Assembly (NCBI RefSeq): GCF_000956475.1 | Contig: NZ_JYJB01000007.1 | Location: 1-64,000, forward strand | DNA: 64,000 nt | From: Microbacterium hydrocarbonoxydans | GTDB lineage: Bacteria > Actinomycetota > Actinomycetes > Actinomycetales > Microbacteriaceae | Direction: 5' to 3' | Part shown: positions 35,730-41,302 of the stretch, piece after piece | How the letters are laid out: every line of letters starts with the position of its first letter | How positions within the stretch are numbered: position 1 is the first letter of the stretch | Position numbers and translations under genes: made by a program | Notes under the pieces: model-generated | What the model was told of the DNA's origin: nothing | The model's input: only the letters and a program-made list of their open reading frames with translations | Database searches by the model: none

Positions 35730-36629
35730 TCAGATGTCGTCTCGACGGGCCTCGATCGCCGACCCGGCGGTGCCGTCGGAGTACGCCACGCGGATCGTGG
35801 GGTTCGACAGGCCCAGGTCGATGAGCGACCTGCCGAAGGTGATCGAGGCACGACCGTCGGCGCCGAACGTGACGGTGCCGGCGTTCGAGGAGCCATAGTT
35901 GACGGATGCCTGCGAGCCGGGGTTTCCGGTGACCGTGAGCGTGTAGCTGCTGAGCACGGGCACGAGAACGACGATCGCCGTGTTCTTCTGCAGCCCGCCC
36001 CAGGCCAGCGGCTTCGGTGCAGGTGGAGGAGTGGTGGGCGTCGTGGGCGTGGTGGGCGTCGTCGGGGTGGTGGGCGTGGTCGGCGTCCCGGGGTCGGTCG
36101 GCGTCGTTCCGGGCGTGGTCCCCGGGGTCGTTCCCGGGGTCGTGGTGCCGGGTGTCGTCGTCCCCGGCGTTGTGGTGCCGGGCGTGGTCCTCTGCCCTTC
36201 GGATCCCGGCGTGGTCGGCGACGCCGACTCCGGCGCGGTCTTCGGTGCGTCCTCGGATTTCGGATCCTCGGTCGCGGAGTCATCGGCGGGGGCCGTGGGC
36301 GCACCGGTGCGATCCACCAGGCCGTACTCGCCTGCCGGCACCTTGTCGTCGGCTCGGTCGGCATAGGTCGTCACCGGCGAGTTCGCGAGCGCGGTCAGAT
36401 CGCCGCCGCCCGACGTGAGCAGTCCGAAGGCCATGAGCCCGACACCGCCCACGACCGAGCCGATCGCAAGGATCTTGCGCGGTCGCGACCAGCCCGAGAC
36501 CCGGGCGTGCACTCGAGCCACGGTTCCCGCGGCGGGCAGAGTCGCCTCCGCCGCGTGCCGGCTGTCGCGCCTGCTGTGGCCAGCTGGCGCGCTCGACTCC
36601 GCAGCGGGCCCCTCCTGCCCGTGGTCCAT
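35730..36629 (-). CDS. Membrane-anchored protein with Thr/Pro-rich repeat linker and Ig-like end
   Basis: This protein of about 299 residues has a basic cytoplasmic N-terminus, one membrane helix (residues 51-74, KILAIGSVVGGVGLMAFGLL), an extracellular linker of TTPGTTTPG and PTTPTTP repeats (about residues 128-205) and a C-terminal beta-rich domain (LSSYTLTVTGNPGSQASV). The linker is low complexity and may span the cell wall or be glycosylated. No enzyme motif is visible. The start is uncertain; ATG 36629 is the first methionine before the helix, and a GTG upstream is possible. Confidence 0.72.
   Translation of the reverse strand: MDHGQEGPAAESSAPAGHSRRDSRHAAEATLPAAGTVARVHARVSGWSRPRKILAIGSVVGGVGLMAFGLLTSGGGDLTALANSPVTTYADRADDKVPAGEYGLVDRTGAPTAPADDSATEDPKSEDAPKTAPESASPTTPGSEGQRTTPGTTTPGTTTPGTTTPGTTPGTTPGTTPTDPGTPTTPTTPTTPTTPTTPTTPPPAPKPLAWGGLQKNTAIVVLVPVLSSYTLTVTGNPGSQASVNYGSSNAGTVTFGADGRASITFGRSLIDLGLSNPTIRVAYSDGTAGSAIEARRDDI
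36017..36200. repeat. Short tandem repeats coding for a Thr/Pro linker
   Basis: Six- to twelve-base repeats such as GTGGTGGGCGTC and CCCGGGGTCGTT run through this stretch and encode the Thr/Pro/Gly repeats of the gene on the minus strand. Such repeats can change length by slippage, so related strains may differ here. It is not a CRISPR array because the units lack unique spacers. Confidence 0.8.
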
Positions 36630-36914
36630 CTCGTACCGCCGATCCCTCTCCCACGCGAGCCCTGAGGCCTGATCAGCCGAGCTCCCCGCCGGCTGGGCGG
36701 TCGACCACTCTCCGACGACCGCGTGCGTGCTCGCCAATATAGCGGGATTCTGACTGTCGGGGGAGGTGGCCCTTCGTCGGGCGAGATCCGAGCGAGACGA
36801 GGTGCGGATCAGAGTACCGGTGTGCTGCCAGGAAACCTTGAACTTTCCCCCGTAGTATCGAGCCGCGCCGCGAGGGGCCCGTGGGCGCGAATTGAACACA
36901 GAAAGCTGTACAGC

Positions 36915-37589
36915 ATGACTGATGCACAGGTGTCGCTCGATGAGCGACTCGGCCCCGTGAGCGTGGAGGGTTCGGCGCTCGCCGACCAGATCTTCGACAT
37001 CGTCGGCAACGCGATCGTCGAGGGAACGCTCGAGCCCGGCGAGAAGGTCAACGACAAGGAGCTCGCGGCAGCTCTCGGCATCTCGCGCACGCCCGTGCGC
37101 GAGGCCCTCCAGCGCCTGACATGGGTCGGTCTGGTCGAAGTCGCTCCCAGCCGCTACACCCGTGTCACCGAGATCACTGACGAGATGGTGAGCAGCACGC
37201 TCGAGTACATGGGCATGCAGGCCAGCGTCGCGTTGCAGCTCGCCATGCGTCGGATGGATGCCGATGAGCTCGCGGAGGCGGTGGAACTCCTCGACCATGT
37301 CATCGCCGCGACCGAAGCCGACGATGCAGAAGCCATGATGAACGAGTCGCTCGTGCTGCTCGAGTACCTCGTCGGCAAGAGCGCGAATCCGGTCTTCTCG
37401 GCGATGATGGCCGAGACCAGTCTTCTCGTGGCTCGAAACCTGCGCCACCTGCACCCTGAAGAGGGCTCGTCCGAGCACCGTCTCGAGTGCTTCCGCGAGA
37501 TGCGCGCCGCCATGCTCGCCGGCGACGCGGATGCTGCGGAGAAGTGGTTCCGCAGACAGCACGGCATCGGCGTCGACACCTCCCTCTGA
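36915..37589 (+). CDS. GntR-family regulator (FCD type)
   Basis: This 224-residue protein has an N-terminal winged helix (ALADQIFDIVGNAIVEGTLEPGEKVNDKELAAALGISRTPVREALQRL in parts) and a C-terminal FCD-like helical domain that in relatives binds small organic acids or sugars. The ATG at 36915 has only a weak ribosome-binding site. The 285-base gap before it holds no gene I can see. There is no obvious neighbouring target; the receptor-channel pair downstream is 127 bases away. Confidence 0.9.
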   Translation: MTDAQVSLDERLGPVSVEGSALADQIFDIVGNAIVEGTLEPGEKVNDKELAAALGISRTPVREALQRLTWVGLVEVAPSRYTRVTEITDEMVSSTLEYMGMQASVALQLAMRRMDADELAEAVELLDHVIAATEADDAEAMMNESLVLLEYLVGKSANPVFSAMMAETSLLVARNLRHLHPEEGSSEHRLECFREMRAAMLAGDADAAEKWFRRQHGIGVDTSL

Positions 37590-37716
37590 GCCGCCCCCCC
37601 GGCTCTCACCCCGCCTGCGGAGCTGTTCGTCCTGCCGCGCCCAGCCCTAGACGCGAAGACCGCCACATCGATATGTTCGATGCGGGGACGCGGAACTCAT
37701 GCGTGGCGGAGGGCAC

Positions 37717-39876
37717 ATGACGGACACGAGCGAGCGGATCAGCGGCACCCGAGAACGAGGATGGCGGCGCCTGCGCCGGCCGGGGCTGAGCATCCAGTCC
37801 AAGCTCCTCATCATGCTCCTGGCGGTGAGTCTGCTCTCGTCGATCGTCGTGGGCGCGATCGGATTTCTGAACGGACGGCAGTCGCTGCACGCCGCGGCGG
37901 TCGATCAGCTCATCACGATCCGCTCGATGCGCGCGGCTGAGGTCGTCGAGGCGCTCGACGACGTCAAGGAGTCGGCGTCTCTCAACTCGCGCAACCTCAG
38001 CGCGCAGACGCTGTCGAACGAGATGAACGCGGCGTTCGACGAGCTCCAGCAGCAGCAGATCAGCGAGGAGCAGCAGGCGCAGCTCGAGTCGTACTACGCC
38101 GACACCTTCGTGCCCGAGCTCGAGAAGCGCACCGGCGACGATTACGGCACCAAGGCCTTCATCCCCGAATCCAACGCCGGGAAGTATCTGCAACTGCACT
38201 ACTCGACCAGGAACCAGGATTTCGACGCCGACTACGACACGCTGCTCACCGCGAACGACGCCGGTGACGGCACGACCTACTCGGCGATGGCCGATCGGTA
38301 CGGCGACTACTTCACGAGGCTGATCGACCGGGCAGGCTACGAGGACGCACTGCTGCTCAACCTCGACGGCGACGTCGTGTTCTCGGCGTACAAGGGCGTC
38401 GATCTGGGCACCAACCTGAACACGGGGCCGTATCGTGACACGGCGTTCGCCGACGCCTACCGTGACGTCATCGCCACCAACTCCGTCGACAGCATCGAGA
38501 TGACCGACTTCGAGCGATGGATCCCGTCGTTCAATGTCCCGTCGATATGGGTGGTCTCTCCGGTCGGCAACGACAGCCGCATCACCGGCGCGATCGCCTT
38601 CCAGATCCCGATCGACAAGATCAACGGCGTCACGACGGGCCACGAGCAGTGGAAGAGCGAAGGCCTCGGCGACACGGGCGAGGTCTACCTCGTCGGTCGC
38701 GACGACCTGATGCGCAGCACGGCGCGCCTGCTCGAGGAAGATCCGGAGGAGTACCACAGGCGACTCATCAGCGGAGGCATCGCGCCGTCGATCGCCGATC
38801 GCATCGTCAAAGTCGGAGGGACCGTCCTGCTGCAGCCCGTCACCACCAAAGCGGTGGCGGATGCGCAGGCGGGCAAGAGCGGCACGACCGAGGGACGCGA
38901 CTTCATCGGCGGCGACAGCCTCACCGCCTACGCACCCCTGGAGGTCGAAGGCCTCGACTGGGTGATCATCGCCCGCATCGACTCCGCCGAGGCATTCGCG
39001 CCGGTCGCCGACTTCACCCGCACCGTGCTGCTGTCGCTGCTCGGCATCCTGCTCGCCGTCTCGCTGCTCTCGCTGCTGCTGGCGCAGGTGTTCACCAGGC
39101 CCATCAACCGCCTGGTCGGCGCCGTGCACCGAGTCGCCGAAGGCGACCTCGACGTGCAGGTGCCGCACTCCTCGCGCGACGAGTTCGGCGACCTCGGCAG
39201 CGCCTTCAACGACATGGCCTCGAGCCTGCGGATCAAGCAGCAGCTGATCGACGAGCAGCAGATCGAGAACGAGAAGCTGCTTCTCACGCTCATGCCCGAG
39301 AGCGTCGCCACGAAGTACAAGAAGGGCGAGGAGGCGATCTCGGAGGCGCACGAGAACGTGTCGGTGGTCTTCGCCGAGGTGGTCGGCCTCGACGATCTGG
39401 CTCGCGGGCTGAGCAGCGACGAGGAGATCGCACTGCTCAACACGCTCATGCGGGGGTTCGACGAAGCGGCCGAGAAGGCGGGCGTCGAGAAGGTGCGCAC
39501 ACTGCGCGGCGGGTACCTGGCGTCGTCCGGCCTCGTGGTGCCTCGCGTCGACAACATCCGCCGCAGCGTCGAGTTCGCTCGCAGCCTGCTCGGAGTCATC
39601 GAGCGGTTCAACTCGCAGAACGGCACGCAGATCTCGCTCAGAGCCGGCGTCGACACGGGCACCGTGACCAGCGGTCTCGTGGGTCGCACCAGCCTCGCGT
39701 ACGACCTCTGGGGCGACGCGGTGAACCTCGCCTATCGCGTCAGATCCGTCACCGGCGAGCCCGGCATCTACGTCAGCCAGACCGTGCGCGACCGCACGCA
39801 GGAGCTGGTGACCTACGTCGAAGCCGGGACGGTGGAGTCGCAGGGCCGCACCGAGACCGTCTGGAAGGTGGCCTGA
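37717..39876 (+). CDS. dCache-HAMP receptor with degenerate class III cyclase domain
   Basis: This 719-residue membrane protein has helix 1 at residues 30-51, a large extracellular double-Cache-like sensor domain (about 52-436), helix 2 at 437-458, a HAMP linker (459-510) and a C-terminal adenylate/guanylate cyclase homology domain. In the cyclase domain the first metal aspartate is glutamate (FAE, Glu554) and the second is glycine (LRGGY, Gly598, where IGDAY is usual). The transition-state Asn670 and Arg674 are kept (VNLAYRV). Normal catalysis is therefore doubtful. The ATG has GGAGGG close upstream. Its stop is one base before an MscS gene with a cNMP-binding-like domain, so the two work together. 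Confidence 0.88.
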   Translation: MTDTSERISGTRERGWRRLRRPGLSIQSKLLIMLLAVSLLSSIVVGAIGFLNGRQSLHAAAVDQLITIRSMRAAEVVEALDDVKESASLNSRNLSAQTLSNEMNAAFDELQQQQISEEQQAQLESYYADTFVPELEKRTGDDYGTKAFIPESNAGKYLQLHYSTRNQDFDADYDTLLTANDAGDGTTYSAMADRYGDYFTRLIDRAGYEDALLLNLDGDVVFSAYKGVDLGTNLNTGPYRDTAFADAYRDVIATNSVDSIEMTDFERWIPSFNVPSIWVVSPVGNDSRITGAIAFQIPIDKINGVTTGHEQWKSEGLGDTGEVYLVGRDDLMRSTARLLEEDPEEYHRRLISGGIAPSIADRIVKVGGTVLLQPVTTKAVADAQAGKSGTTEGRDFIGGDSLTAYAPLEVEGLDWVIIARIDSAEAFAPVADFTRTVLLSLLGILLAVSLLSLLLAQVFTRPINRLVGAVHRVAEGDLDVQVPHSSRDEFGDLGSAFNDMASSLRIKQQLIDEQQIENEKLLLTLMPESVATKYKKGEEAISEAHENVSVVFAEVVGLDDLARGLSSDEEIALLNTLMRGFDEAAEKAGVEKVRTLRGGYLASSGLVVPRVDNIRRSVEFARSLLGVIERFNSQNGTQISLRAGVDTGTVTSGLVGRTSLAYDLWGDAVNLAYRVRSVTGEPGIYVSQTVRDRTQELVTYVEAGTVESQGRTETVWKVA

Positions 39877-39877
39877 C

Positions 39878-41302
39878 ATGGCCGAGGCGTTCCAGGACGG
39901 CTGGGCCTGGTGGGTGATCGCGCTCGCCGTCGGCGTGCCCGTGCTCCTGGTGATCCTCACCGAGGCCATCGGCGCATTGAGCAGACGGGGGAACCCGGTG
40001 GCCAAGCCGCTGCGGATGCTGCGCAACTGGGTGGTCCCGGTCGGAGCCCTCTTCGCGCTGCTCGCGTTCGCGATCCAGTCGCCCGCCGACCGGGTGTGGG
40101 TGCGGGTGGTCGCGACCGTGTTCGGCTTCCTCGTGATCCTGCTCGTGCTGTCGGCGTTCAACGTGGCGCTGTTCGCGAACGCGACGCCCGGCACCTGGCG
40201 CGAGCGGATCCCGTCGATCTTCGTGGAGATCGCCCGCCTTACGCTCGTCGTGATCGGGCTCGCCCTGCTGTTCTCCTGGGTGTGGGACGCCGACGTCGGC
40301 GGCCTGTTCACGGCGCTCGGCGTCGGATCCATCGTGATCGGCCTGGCCCTGCAGAATGCGGTCGGGGGTGTGATCTCGGGGCTCCTGCTGCTGTTCGAGC
40401 AGCCGTTCAAGATCGGCGACTGGCTCGACACCGGCGGCGTGAAGGGCCGGGTCGTCGAGGTGAACTGGCGCGCCGTGCACATCGACACCGGATCCGGCAT
40501 CCAGATCGTCCCGAACTCCAACCTCTCGGGCGCATCCTTCACCAACATGAGCCAGCCCGACGGACCGTACTCCGCCGAGACGGAGGTGAAGTTCTCGACC
40601 GACGATCCGCCGCACGAGGTGATGGCGCTGCTTCTCGAGACGGCCGATGCCCTTCCGATGCGGATGCCGGGAGAGCGGGCGTCGGTGCAGTACTCGGGCG
40701 CGGGCGCCTACGGAGTCTCCATCCCGGTCGCCGCCCCTGCTGACGCCGCCCGCGCGCTGTCGATGTATCTGTCGTGGCTCTGGTACGCCGCACGTCGGCG
40801 CCGGTTCGCGCTCGACGGGGACTCGACCGATCCGCTCGCCGAACCGCAGGTGCTCGCCGCGGCGCTGGCCGAGATCGCGCCGACGCTCCACCTGCGCGAA
40901 GACGATGCCGAGGCACTGCGTTCGACCGCGCACCTCGAGCGCTACGGGGTGGGAGAGGTCGTGCTCCCGAGCGGCGTCGTGCCCGACGAGGTGCGCGTGG
41001 TGCTGTCGGGTCGGGCGCTGCTGTCGCTGGAGGCCGACGGCGGACGGATCGAGGTGGGAGCGACGGAGAAGGGCGAGATGATCGGGCAGACCGCTCTGAC
41101 CCGTGAGCGCACCAAGGTCGTGACGATCGCCGGCGAGATCCTGACCGTCGTGGTGCTGCCGTTGAACACCGTCGACGAGCTGATCAGGACACGTCCGCGG
41201 CTGGCGGCCGAGATCGGCGAGTCGCTCGAACTCAAGCGCACTCAGGCGGAAGCGCGGCTCTCGGAGCTGGGCATCGCGAAAGGCGGCATCCGCGGGCTCT
41301 GA
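39878..41302 (+). CDS. MscS-type channel with C-terminal cyclic-nucleotide-binding-like domain
   Basis: This 474-residue protein combines membrane helices (about residues 8-145), the MscS pore and beta domain (LGVGSIVIGLALQNAVGGVI and EQPFKIGDWL) and a C-terminal CNBD/Crp-like domain (about 330-460). The CNBD phosphate cassette is GEMIGQTALTRERT: the arginine (Arg411) that holds the phosphate is present, but the glutamate that binds the ribose is Gln404. It follows the receptor gene by one base. The likely job is a channel gated by membrane tension, the receptor, or a nucleotide-like ligand. Confidence 0.9.
   Translation: MAEAFQDGWAWWVIALAVGVPVLLVILTEAIGALSRRGNPVAKPLRMLRNWVVPVGALFALLAFAIQSPADRVWVRVVATVFGFLVILLVLSAFNVALFANATPGTWRERIPSIFVEIARLTLVVIGLALLFSWVWDADVGGLFTALGVGSIVIGLALQNAVGGVISGLLLLFEQPFKIGDWLDTGGVKGRVVEVNWRAVHIDTGSGIQIVPNSNLSGASFTNMSQPDGPYSAETEVKFSTDDPPHEVMALLLETADALPMRMPGERASVQYSGAGAYGVSIPVAAPADAARALSMYLSWLWYAARRRRFALDGDSTDPLAEPQVLAAALAEIAPTLHLREDDAEALRSTAHLERYGVGEVVLPSGVVPDEVRVVLSGRALLSLEADGGRIEVGATEKGEMIGQTALTRERTKVVTIAGEILTVVVLPLNTVDELIRTRPRLAAEIGESLELKRTQAEARLSELGIAKGGIRGL

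Follow-up and report, generated by a model that had tools for sequence, protein, structure and literature searches.

Can a membrane receptor with a cyclase-like output domain control a channel without making a cyclic nucleotide? This question is raised by two adjacent genes in a 64,000-nucleotide stretch of DNA from Microbacterium hydrocarbonoxydans (hereafter the window: contig NZ_JYJB01000007.1 of RefSeq assembly GCF_000956475.1, positions 1 to 64,000 of the forward strand). Gene A (37717..39876, + strand) encodes a dCache-HAMP receptor with a class III cyclase-like output domain, and gene B (39878..41302, + strand) an MscS-type channel that carries at its C-terminus a domain resembling cyclic-nucleotide-binding domains (CNBDs). 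A first reading of this sequence (the original prediction) had taken the pairing to imply a channel gated through a nucleotide, and had proposed that the cyclase domain may be a pseudo-enzyme and that the pair is a candidate for an undescribed signalling system. We find that the two genes are almost always paired and that the catalytic residues of A and the nucleotide-binding cassette of B are altered across the actinobacterial clade. On balance, we lean towards the view that receptor A gates channel B through its CNBD-like domain by means of a non-catalytic cyclase domain, most likely by contact.

Architecture of the gene pair

The frame of A is open from 37699 to 39876 (725 amino acids) and contains an ATG at 37717; this start is favoured because a GGAGGG lies at 37708-37713. 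Residues are numbered here in the 725-residue frame, so that E560, G604, N676 and R680 correspond to 554, 598, 670 and 674 of the original prediction, which counted from 37717. Pfam identified in A an extracytoplasmic dCache_1 domain (PF02743, 48.9 bits for a cut-off of 45; residues 171-425, 38209..38973), a HAMP domain (PF00672, 62.3 bits; residues 460-511, 39076..39231) and a Guanylate_cyc domain (PF00211, 110.1 bits for a cut-off of 21.9), the last corresponding to the cyclase-like domain at residues 548-719 (39340..39855) that we predict to be non-catalytic; all features of both genes are on the + strand. The predicted model of A has a mean pLDDT (predicted local distance difference test) of 81.7, and its output domain matches solved class III cyclases with Z scores of about 20, for instance the bacterial adenylyl cyclase domain 5o5k (Z 21.3, root-mean-square deviation (rmsd) 3.9, 201 residues). 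Gene B begins one base past the stop codon of A. Its product contains an MscS beta domain (MS_channel_2nd, PF00924, 70.0 bits; residues 161-225, 40358..40552), and its predicted model (mean pLDDT 83.9) is matched by Foldseek to MscS (7.5e-13) and YnaI; the beta domain and the pore helix that mark the MscS superfamily are both present. The C-terminal domain (residues 355-438, 40940..41191) scored 26.9 bits against cNMP_binding (PF00027) when the protein was searched, just below the cut-off of 27.5, and 30.9 bits, above it, in the genome scan; its structure resembles the CNBDs of channels and kinases. Open reading frames and Pfam thus confirmed the domain order and the one-base spacing described at the outset.

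Loss of catalytic residues in the cyclase-like domain

The four residues to which the original prediction had drawn attention are all present in A. Glu560 (codon 39376..39378) occupies the column of the first metal-binding aspartate, Gly604 (39508..39510), within LRGGY, that of the second, and Asn676 and Arg680 (39724..39738) are the transition-state residues. We noted one further change: Arg600 (residue 594 from the later start; 39496..39498) stands in the column of the substrate lysine, while the column of the substrate aspartate holds Asp669 (39703..39705). These columns are named as is usual for class III cyclases, and an alignment with human AC9 agrees with the assignment. The window domain therefore belongs to class III by fold and profile and has the transition-state Asn and Arg; the metal Asp pair is missing, and of the substrate Lys/Asp pair only the Asp is kept.

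The same columns were read in 126 distinct actinobacterial A domains, a set that includes the window and L182 and was reduced from 134 by removal of exact repeats of the last 200 residues. It leaves out loci L079 (partial), L108 (no homologue), L154 and L207 (frameshifts) and L254 (not an A), and L213 was counted as cyanobacterial. None of the 126 has the full catalytic set: both metal aspartates occur together in a single domain, and the Gly-Asp of the second metal site is absent from all. The first metal column contains D 82, E 36, Q 5, V 2 and N 1, and the second N 52, G 21, E 15, S 13, Q 13, R 4, D 3 and others. The substrate columns are far more uniform (R 124 and H 2 for the lysine, D 121 and A 5 for the aspartate), and the transition-state columns are mixed (N 56, S 48, D 13 and others; R 72, Q 43 and others). 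The exact Glu/Gly combination of the window is thus not fixed among relatives, whereas the absence of Gly-Asp and the replacement of Lys by Arg are; likewise, Asn and Arg are retained in the window, as had been stated, but in only 56 and 72 of the 126 domains. The same searches yielded 17 control cyclase domains, for which the 2.9-3.7 kb read contained no relative of B; both metal aspartates were found in 17 of them and all eight residues in 15.

Loss of these residues is accompanied by conservation of the rest of the domain. Ranked among 172 columns, the second metal column is only 137th in conservation, compared with 18th for Arg600 and 28th for Asp669, and the corresponding Arg and Asp are found together in 119 of the 126 domains. 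Near the lost loop runs a new conserved stretch, E-x-V-R-T-x-x-x-G-Y-L-A-S-C-G-L-x-x-P-R-x-D, in which Gly611 and Asp618 are invariant in all 126, as is Arg622 just past it. In 13 pairs of close relatives, not all of them independent, the ratio of nonsynonymous to synonymous substitution rates (dN/dS) of the cyclase domain ranged from 0 to 0.17 and was below that of the Cache/transmembrane region every time. These values indicate that the domain is under strong purifying selection and is not decaying. The pseudo-enzyme reading is therefore well supported, at the level of sequence, as a state of the whole clade, and we consider it quite likely that the actinobacterial A domain is not an ordinary cyclase.

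The same data bear on the simplest alternative, namely an ordinary receptor-channel pair operated by cyclic AMP (cAMP), of the bacterial cyclic nucleotide-gated (bCNG) type, with a broken allele in the window. The domain order fits a cAMP circuit, and canonical copies do occur in cyanobacteria (see below). Nevertheless this explanation is largely refuted by a loss that extends over 126 domains under strong purifying selection, and no other class III cyclase was matched in the window genome; we regard it as very improbable.

A separate observation concerns five loci (L172, L176, L179, L186 and L210) in which A has Asp669 changed to Ala, Tyr606 changed to Leu and Gln in the first metal column, and in which the pair is retained.

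Conservation of the A-B pair

Of 249 Microbacteriaceae genomes searched at E 1e-20, 34 gave a match to A, exactly these 34 gave a match to B, and the other 215 gave neither. B immediately follows A, in the same orientation, in all 33 Microbacteriaceae relatives, with a spacing that goes from an overlap of at most 8 bases to a gap of at most 20, depending on the start codons chosen. Searches with A matched 23 of 396 genomes at the level of the order (5 through the cyclase domain alone) and 52 of 396 at the level of the phylum (17 full-length), and B was present in all 23 core loci (L112-L134) fetched from them. In the converse search, B matched 10 of 296 genomes of the phylum (E 1e-20), nine of which have a full-length A adjoining; the tenth (G828) is a partial match to the MscS core, situated at the end of a contig, and the 6.5 kb read there contain no A. 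B was also found in 79 of the best 80 of 480 loci, which come mostly from Microbacterium, Curtobacterium, Mycobacterium and Mycolicibacterium, with some from Leifsonia, Herbiconiux and others, and which include one cyanobacterial pair (L213). The genome searches sample the larger groups evenly, and some genomes in the sequence sets may belong to the same species. An arrangement found again in different genera and phyla cannot be put down to chance, and A and B can with good confidence be taken as one functional unit.

Two pairs may reside within one genome (L117 with L118, and L178 with L185). In L114 and L115, which belong to another family, A and B are 73-76% identical to those of the window, closer than the 33 relatives of the first sample; this suggests that the pair moved as a unit. 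The identities of A and of B to the window are correlated (0.96, n 123), which shows only shared descent. L154 and L207 were considered as natural A-B fusions and rejected, comparison with relatives having revealed frameshifts, and for this reason they were not used as evidence of contact. In L182, a gene that resembles a histidine kinase by eye occupies the place downstream of A.

An altered binding cassette in B

In the available text of PMC11224242, a ribose-binding Glu and a phosphate-binding Arg are described as conserved in CRP proteins and in the cUMP receptor PycTIR. The phosphate-binding cassette of B, GEMIGQTALTRERTKVVTIAGE (residues 399-420, 41072..41137), is altered at both positions. 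We compared 124 distinct actinobacterial B sequences, leaving out L079 and L141 (cut), L154, L207 and L182 (no B) and exact repeats, and counting L213 as cyanobacterial. The column of the ribose Glu contains Q 55, L 35 and E 1, with Gln404 in the window, and the column of the phosphate Arg, assigned by alignment across a shortened loop, holds Arg in 0 of 124, with Thr412 in the window. A novel [TS]-R-[EQ] motif is found in 106 of the 124. B can thus be counted among CNBDs by its fold; it lacks the Glu and Arg of the cassette, with its conserved Arg409 leaving some doubt on the latter. Together, the two losses are a strong but not final argument, on sequence, against ordinary cyclic-mononucleotide binding. 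No clean cAMP cassette was seen either in 13 other Microbacteriaceae CNBDs, which consequently offer no positive control; the expectation of Glu and Arg is drawn from the accessible part of PMC11224242. In five further loci (L262, L263, L265, L266 and L267) a CNBD lies inside long frames of 563 to 981 residues, in which the cassette Glu is kept and no clear Arg is seen.

These results divide the first claim made for the pair. The coupling of a sensor to a channel, with a probably non-catalytic domain between them, is supported because the pair is fixed, the loss spans the core clade and the domain is conserved, whereas gating by a nucleotide is less secure than had been assumed, the CNBD of B being non-canonical.

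Two other explanations keep a ligand in the circuit. A might make a second messenger by another chemistry, or of another kind, that the altered CNBD of B reads. Both partners have changed, as though ligand specificity had shifted, and Arg600 and Asp669 of the base pocket are fixed together in 119 of 126 domains; Pycsar cyclases likewise deviate at their base-recognition residues, according to the text at hand of PMC11224242, and in a sequence search of the PDB the B CNBD has just two matches, of which the second is a PycTIR (E 0.00017). Two canonical cyanobacterial copies, and a match of the L213 A protein to the PADLOC models of PycC, point the same way. However, in the part of PMC11224242 available, the PycC enzymes compared keep both metal aspartates and the PycTIR CNBD keeps Glu and Arg, against 1 of 126 and 1 of 124 here, and the second metal column drifts freely; we judge this explanation rather unlikely. 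We give much the same low weight to the idea that the cyclase domain, the CNBD or both sense an unreacted ligand (a nucleoside, a nucleoside triphosphate or another metabolite), so that an A-B complex would be gated by signals from outside and inside the cell. Retention of the base pocket with loss of catalytic residues would fit it, and structural matches of B include 6hyq, which by its title is a cAMP-independent protein kinase A (PKA) regulatory subunit of T. cruzi bound to guanosine. Against it, the subclade of five loci has also lost Asp669 and Tyr606.

Cyclases and CNBDs elsewhere in the genomes

The window genome (3.95 Mb, 10 contigs, completeness 100) contains one PF00211 match and one PF00027 match, and both fall in the A-B pair. 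In 30 of 33 relatives, too, PF00211 matches nothing but the domain of the pair. More widely, PF00211 was matched in 12 of 100 Microbacteriaceae genomes, the window's included, and 10 of these 12 correspond to gene A. According to PMC2447327, class III cyclases were the sole kind identified in the actinobacterial genomes available at the time. Given that the sole PF00211 match is the altered A domain, the window cell probably makes no cAMP through a canonical class III enzyme, as far as can be judged from a search that covered PF00211. Two relatives have a second class III cyclase (L268 and L269, with L256 and L257), in one case with both metal aspartates, and a gene for a CRP-like CNBD lies about 2 kb away.

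Relatives outside the actinobacterial core

Starting from the cyanobacterial pair L213, we searched 244 genomes of that phylum, among them the one that carries L213, and found A relatives (E 1e-70) in 16. A is followed by B in 15 of the 17 additional cyanobacterial loci, or 16 of 18 once L213 is counted; in the exception L254, the A match is confined to the receptor half. Cyanobacterial A domains have Gly-Asp in 12 of 17 cases, both metal aspartates in 7 and all eight residues in 2 (L245 and L246), and cyanobacterial B proteins keep the ribose Glu in 14 of 16 and have Ser in the column of the phosphate Arg in 16 of 16. Eight further class III domains from the genome of L213 are all canonical, with no B relative in the stretches read. 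Twenty records of rhizobial plasmids contain a relative that is about 32% identical to A, and in 19 the match spans 80% or more of the A protein. Receptor-type class III cyclases of this sort, for example from Sinorhizobium plasmids, share the dCache-HAMP-cyclase architecture over 91% of the protein; the two full-length homologues read, unlike A, are fully canonical and have no B nearby. Among the sequences read, unpaired relatives are therefore intact and paired ones mostly or wholly altered.

In a tree built without the motif columns, the 41 sampled domains of the pair family (17 core, 17 cyanobacterial and 7 deep) formed one clade (100/100), separate from 10 actinobacterial controls and the 8 further cyclase domains from the genome of L213. 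The 17 core domains also formed one clade (100/100), and the tree did not resolve the branching order of the cyanobacterial and deep domains. Intact homologues in the same gene pair had been named at the outset as the sign of a broken allele. Taken literally, two of the 17 cyanobacterial copies are such homologues; as they lie outside the actinobacterial clade, we read the canonical cyanobacterial copies as an earlier state and not as that sign. The best reading is that A-B is an ancient receptor-channel module whose cyclase domain has turned non-catalytic and would gate the channel through contact or a bound ligand.

The deep actinobacterial clade has the order A-B-A (L135, L136 and L139): two unlike A-type receptors flank one channel gene. 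None of its eight A domains has both metal aspartates. A heterodimer of two receptors controlling one channel is possible at these loci. Human AC9 and other mammalian membrane cyclases, which join metal and substrate residues from two unlike halves, are the best PDB sequence matches of the A domain (1e-37) and close folds (Z 20.8). A could be one half of a heterodimeric cyclase, comparable to the mammalian C1 and C2 halves: in the alignment its loop is similar to that of the second AC9 half, where the metal aspartates are likewise missing, and the deep clade has two A-like genes around one B. Yet no second class III domain is found, at the level of PF00211, in the window genome or in 30 of 33 relatives, and both A copies have lost the first metal site in the three complete A-B-A loci. 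We consider this alternative extremely improbable.

Neighbouring genes

A GntR/FCD regulator is encoded just upstream of A (36723-37589, + strand). When neighbours were searched for near the pair (E 1e-15, 56 loci), the GntR gene was found at 1 locus, the small downstream membrane gene at 4, purA at 2 and the lactonase at 2. The neighbouring genes were consequently rejected as parts of the system, and the unit consists of A and B alone. Further upstream, a coding stretch on the - strand (35730-36560) contains runs of Thr-Pro repeats (TPTTPTTPTTP), like a secreted or wall-linked protein.

Relation to known systems

The same A-B pair is carried by Mycobacterium and Mycolicibacterium loci. Rv2435c (MSMEG_4477) is probably the mycobacterial A and Rv2434c the adjacent MscS-CNBD gene; the loci read contain neither gene, and the assignment fits the published passages that follow. 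In the available passages, Rv2435c is placed among the class III cyclases of M. tuberculosis, within the mammalian-type group of adenylyl cyclases (PMC3961136), and has a double Cache domain (PMC4822843), MSMEG_4477 is listed among eight adenylyl cyclase genes of M. smegmatis (PMC7739888), and Rv2434c is described as a membrane protein with a possible role in cAMP signalling (PMC11205783). The mycobacterial gene is thus counted among adenylyl cyclases, whereas the full catalytic set is present in 0 of 126 actinobacterial A relatives. The system is thus not new in every respect, the mycobacterial homologue being a known gene; as a receptor-channel module with a dead cyclase, it was not described in the literature searched, in which subscription papers were few, although a 2004 survey that reportedly names both Rv2435c and Rv2434c (PMC2447327) may describe the pair.

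B differs from the bCNG channels in its cassette, where the Glu is missing and, if the alignment is followed, the Arg as well. To our knowledge, coupling to a Cache receptor is not a feature of these channels. Like B, they combine an MscS core with a C-terminal CNBD (the family is named in the references of PMC4560390, as far as accessible). In Pycsar systems (PycC with PycTM or PycTIR), a cyclase-fold gene likewise stands beside a membrane CNBD effector; the window pair differs in the absence of the metal Asp pair and in the nature of A, a membrane receptor. PADLOC gave no match to A or B of the window.

A proposed contact relay

On this basis, we propose that the dCache domain of A would bind an extracytoplasmic small molecule and that the resulting change would travel through HAMP and a coiled coil to a dimeric cyclase-fold domain. 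This dimer would no longer perform two-metal cyclisation; probably with a ligand held and not turned over in the base pocket (Arg600/Asp669), it would alter the gating of channel B, the signal entering at the reworked CNBD-like domain, most likely through direct contact. What we infer here includes enzymatic inactivity, ligand binding, A-B contact, channel function and the signal itself. The module as a whole, read as a receptor with a non-catalytic cyclase domain that gates B, seems to us slightly the better bet. Direct contact between A and B, taken by itself, falls a little short of an even chance. More tentative still is the fullest form of the proposal, that of an ancient module shared between actinobacteria and cyanobacteria: the dead cyclase of the chemical receptor would act directly on the reworked CNBD to open or close the MscS-type channel, no diffusible nucleotide would take part, and what was once a cAMP circuit would have become a protein-contact relay, its earlier state still visible in the canonical cyanobacterial copies.

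Several observations weigh against this proposal. On the side of A, the window protein keeps Asn676 and Arg680. The near-invariance of Arg600 and Asp669 suggests that the domain still binds a nucleotide-like ligand, so that it may have an unusual activity. Part of the A family may be active: among the 17 cyanobacterial domains, both metal aspartates are present in 7 and the complete set of eight residues in 2. In addition, PADLOC models of PycC match the A protein of the cyanobacterial L213 (best 1e-13). On the side of B, the CNBD fold is intact (Z 17.4, rmsd 3.5 over 137 residues to 4muv, the CNBD of the M. loti channel), and a phosphate might be bound by the conserved Arg409 from a shifted position. 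A further CNBD above the Pfam cut-off is present in 10 of 33 relatives. Pairing also has its exceptions, with no B within about 5 kb downstream of the mycobacterial A of L182 and none in the 13.7 kb read at L251. Finally, A-B covariation was analysed over 124 pairs (effective number 98); most of the top scores came back when the B sequences were shuffled within clades, so that no signal rose convincingly above the shuffle.

If the proposal is true, this pair would be an MscS channel operated by a receptor without cyclic nucleotides, in which a cyclase has turned into a non-catalytic relay alongside the receptor domain of its partner. The intact cyanobacterial copies would then allow an enzyme circuit and a contact circuit to be compared directly. 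Since the homologue, as identified by recall and the fitting passages, is listed among the adenylyl cyclases, the number of cAMP-producing enzymes counted in mycobacteria may be one too high.

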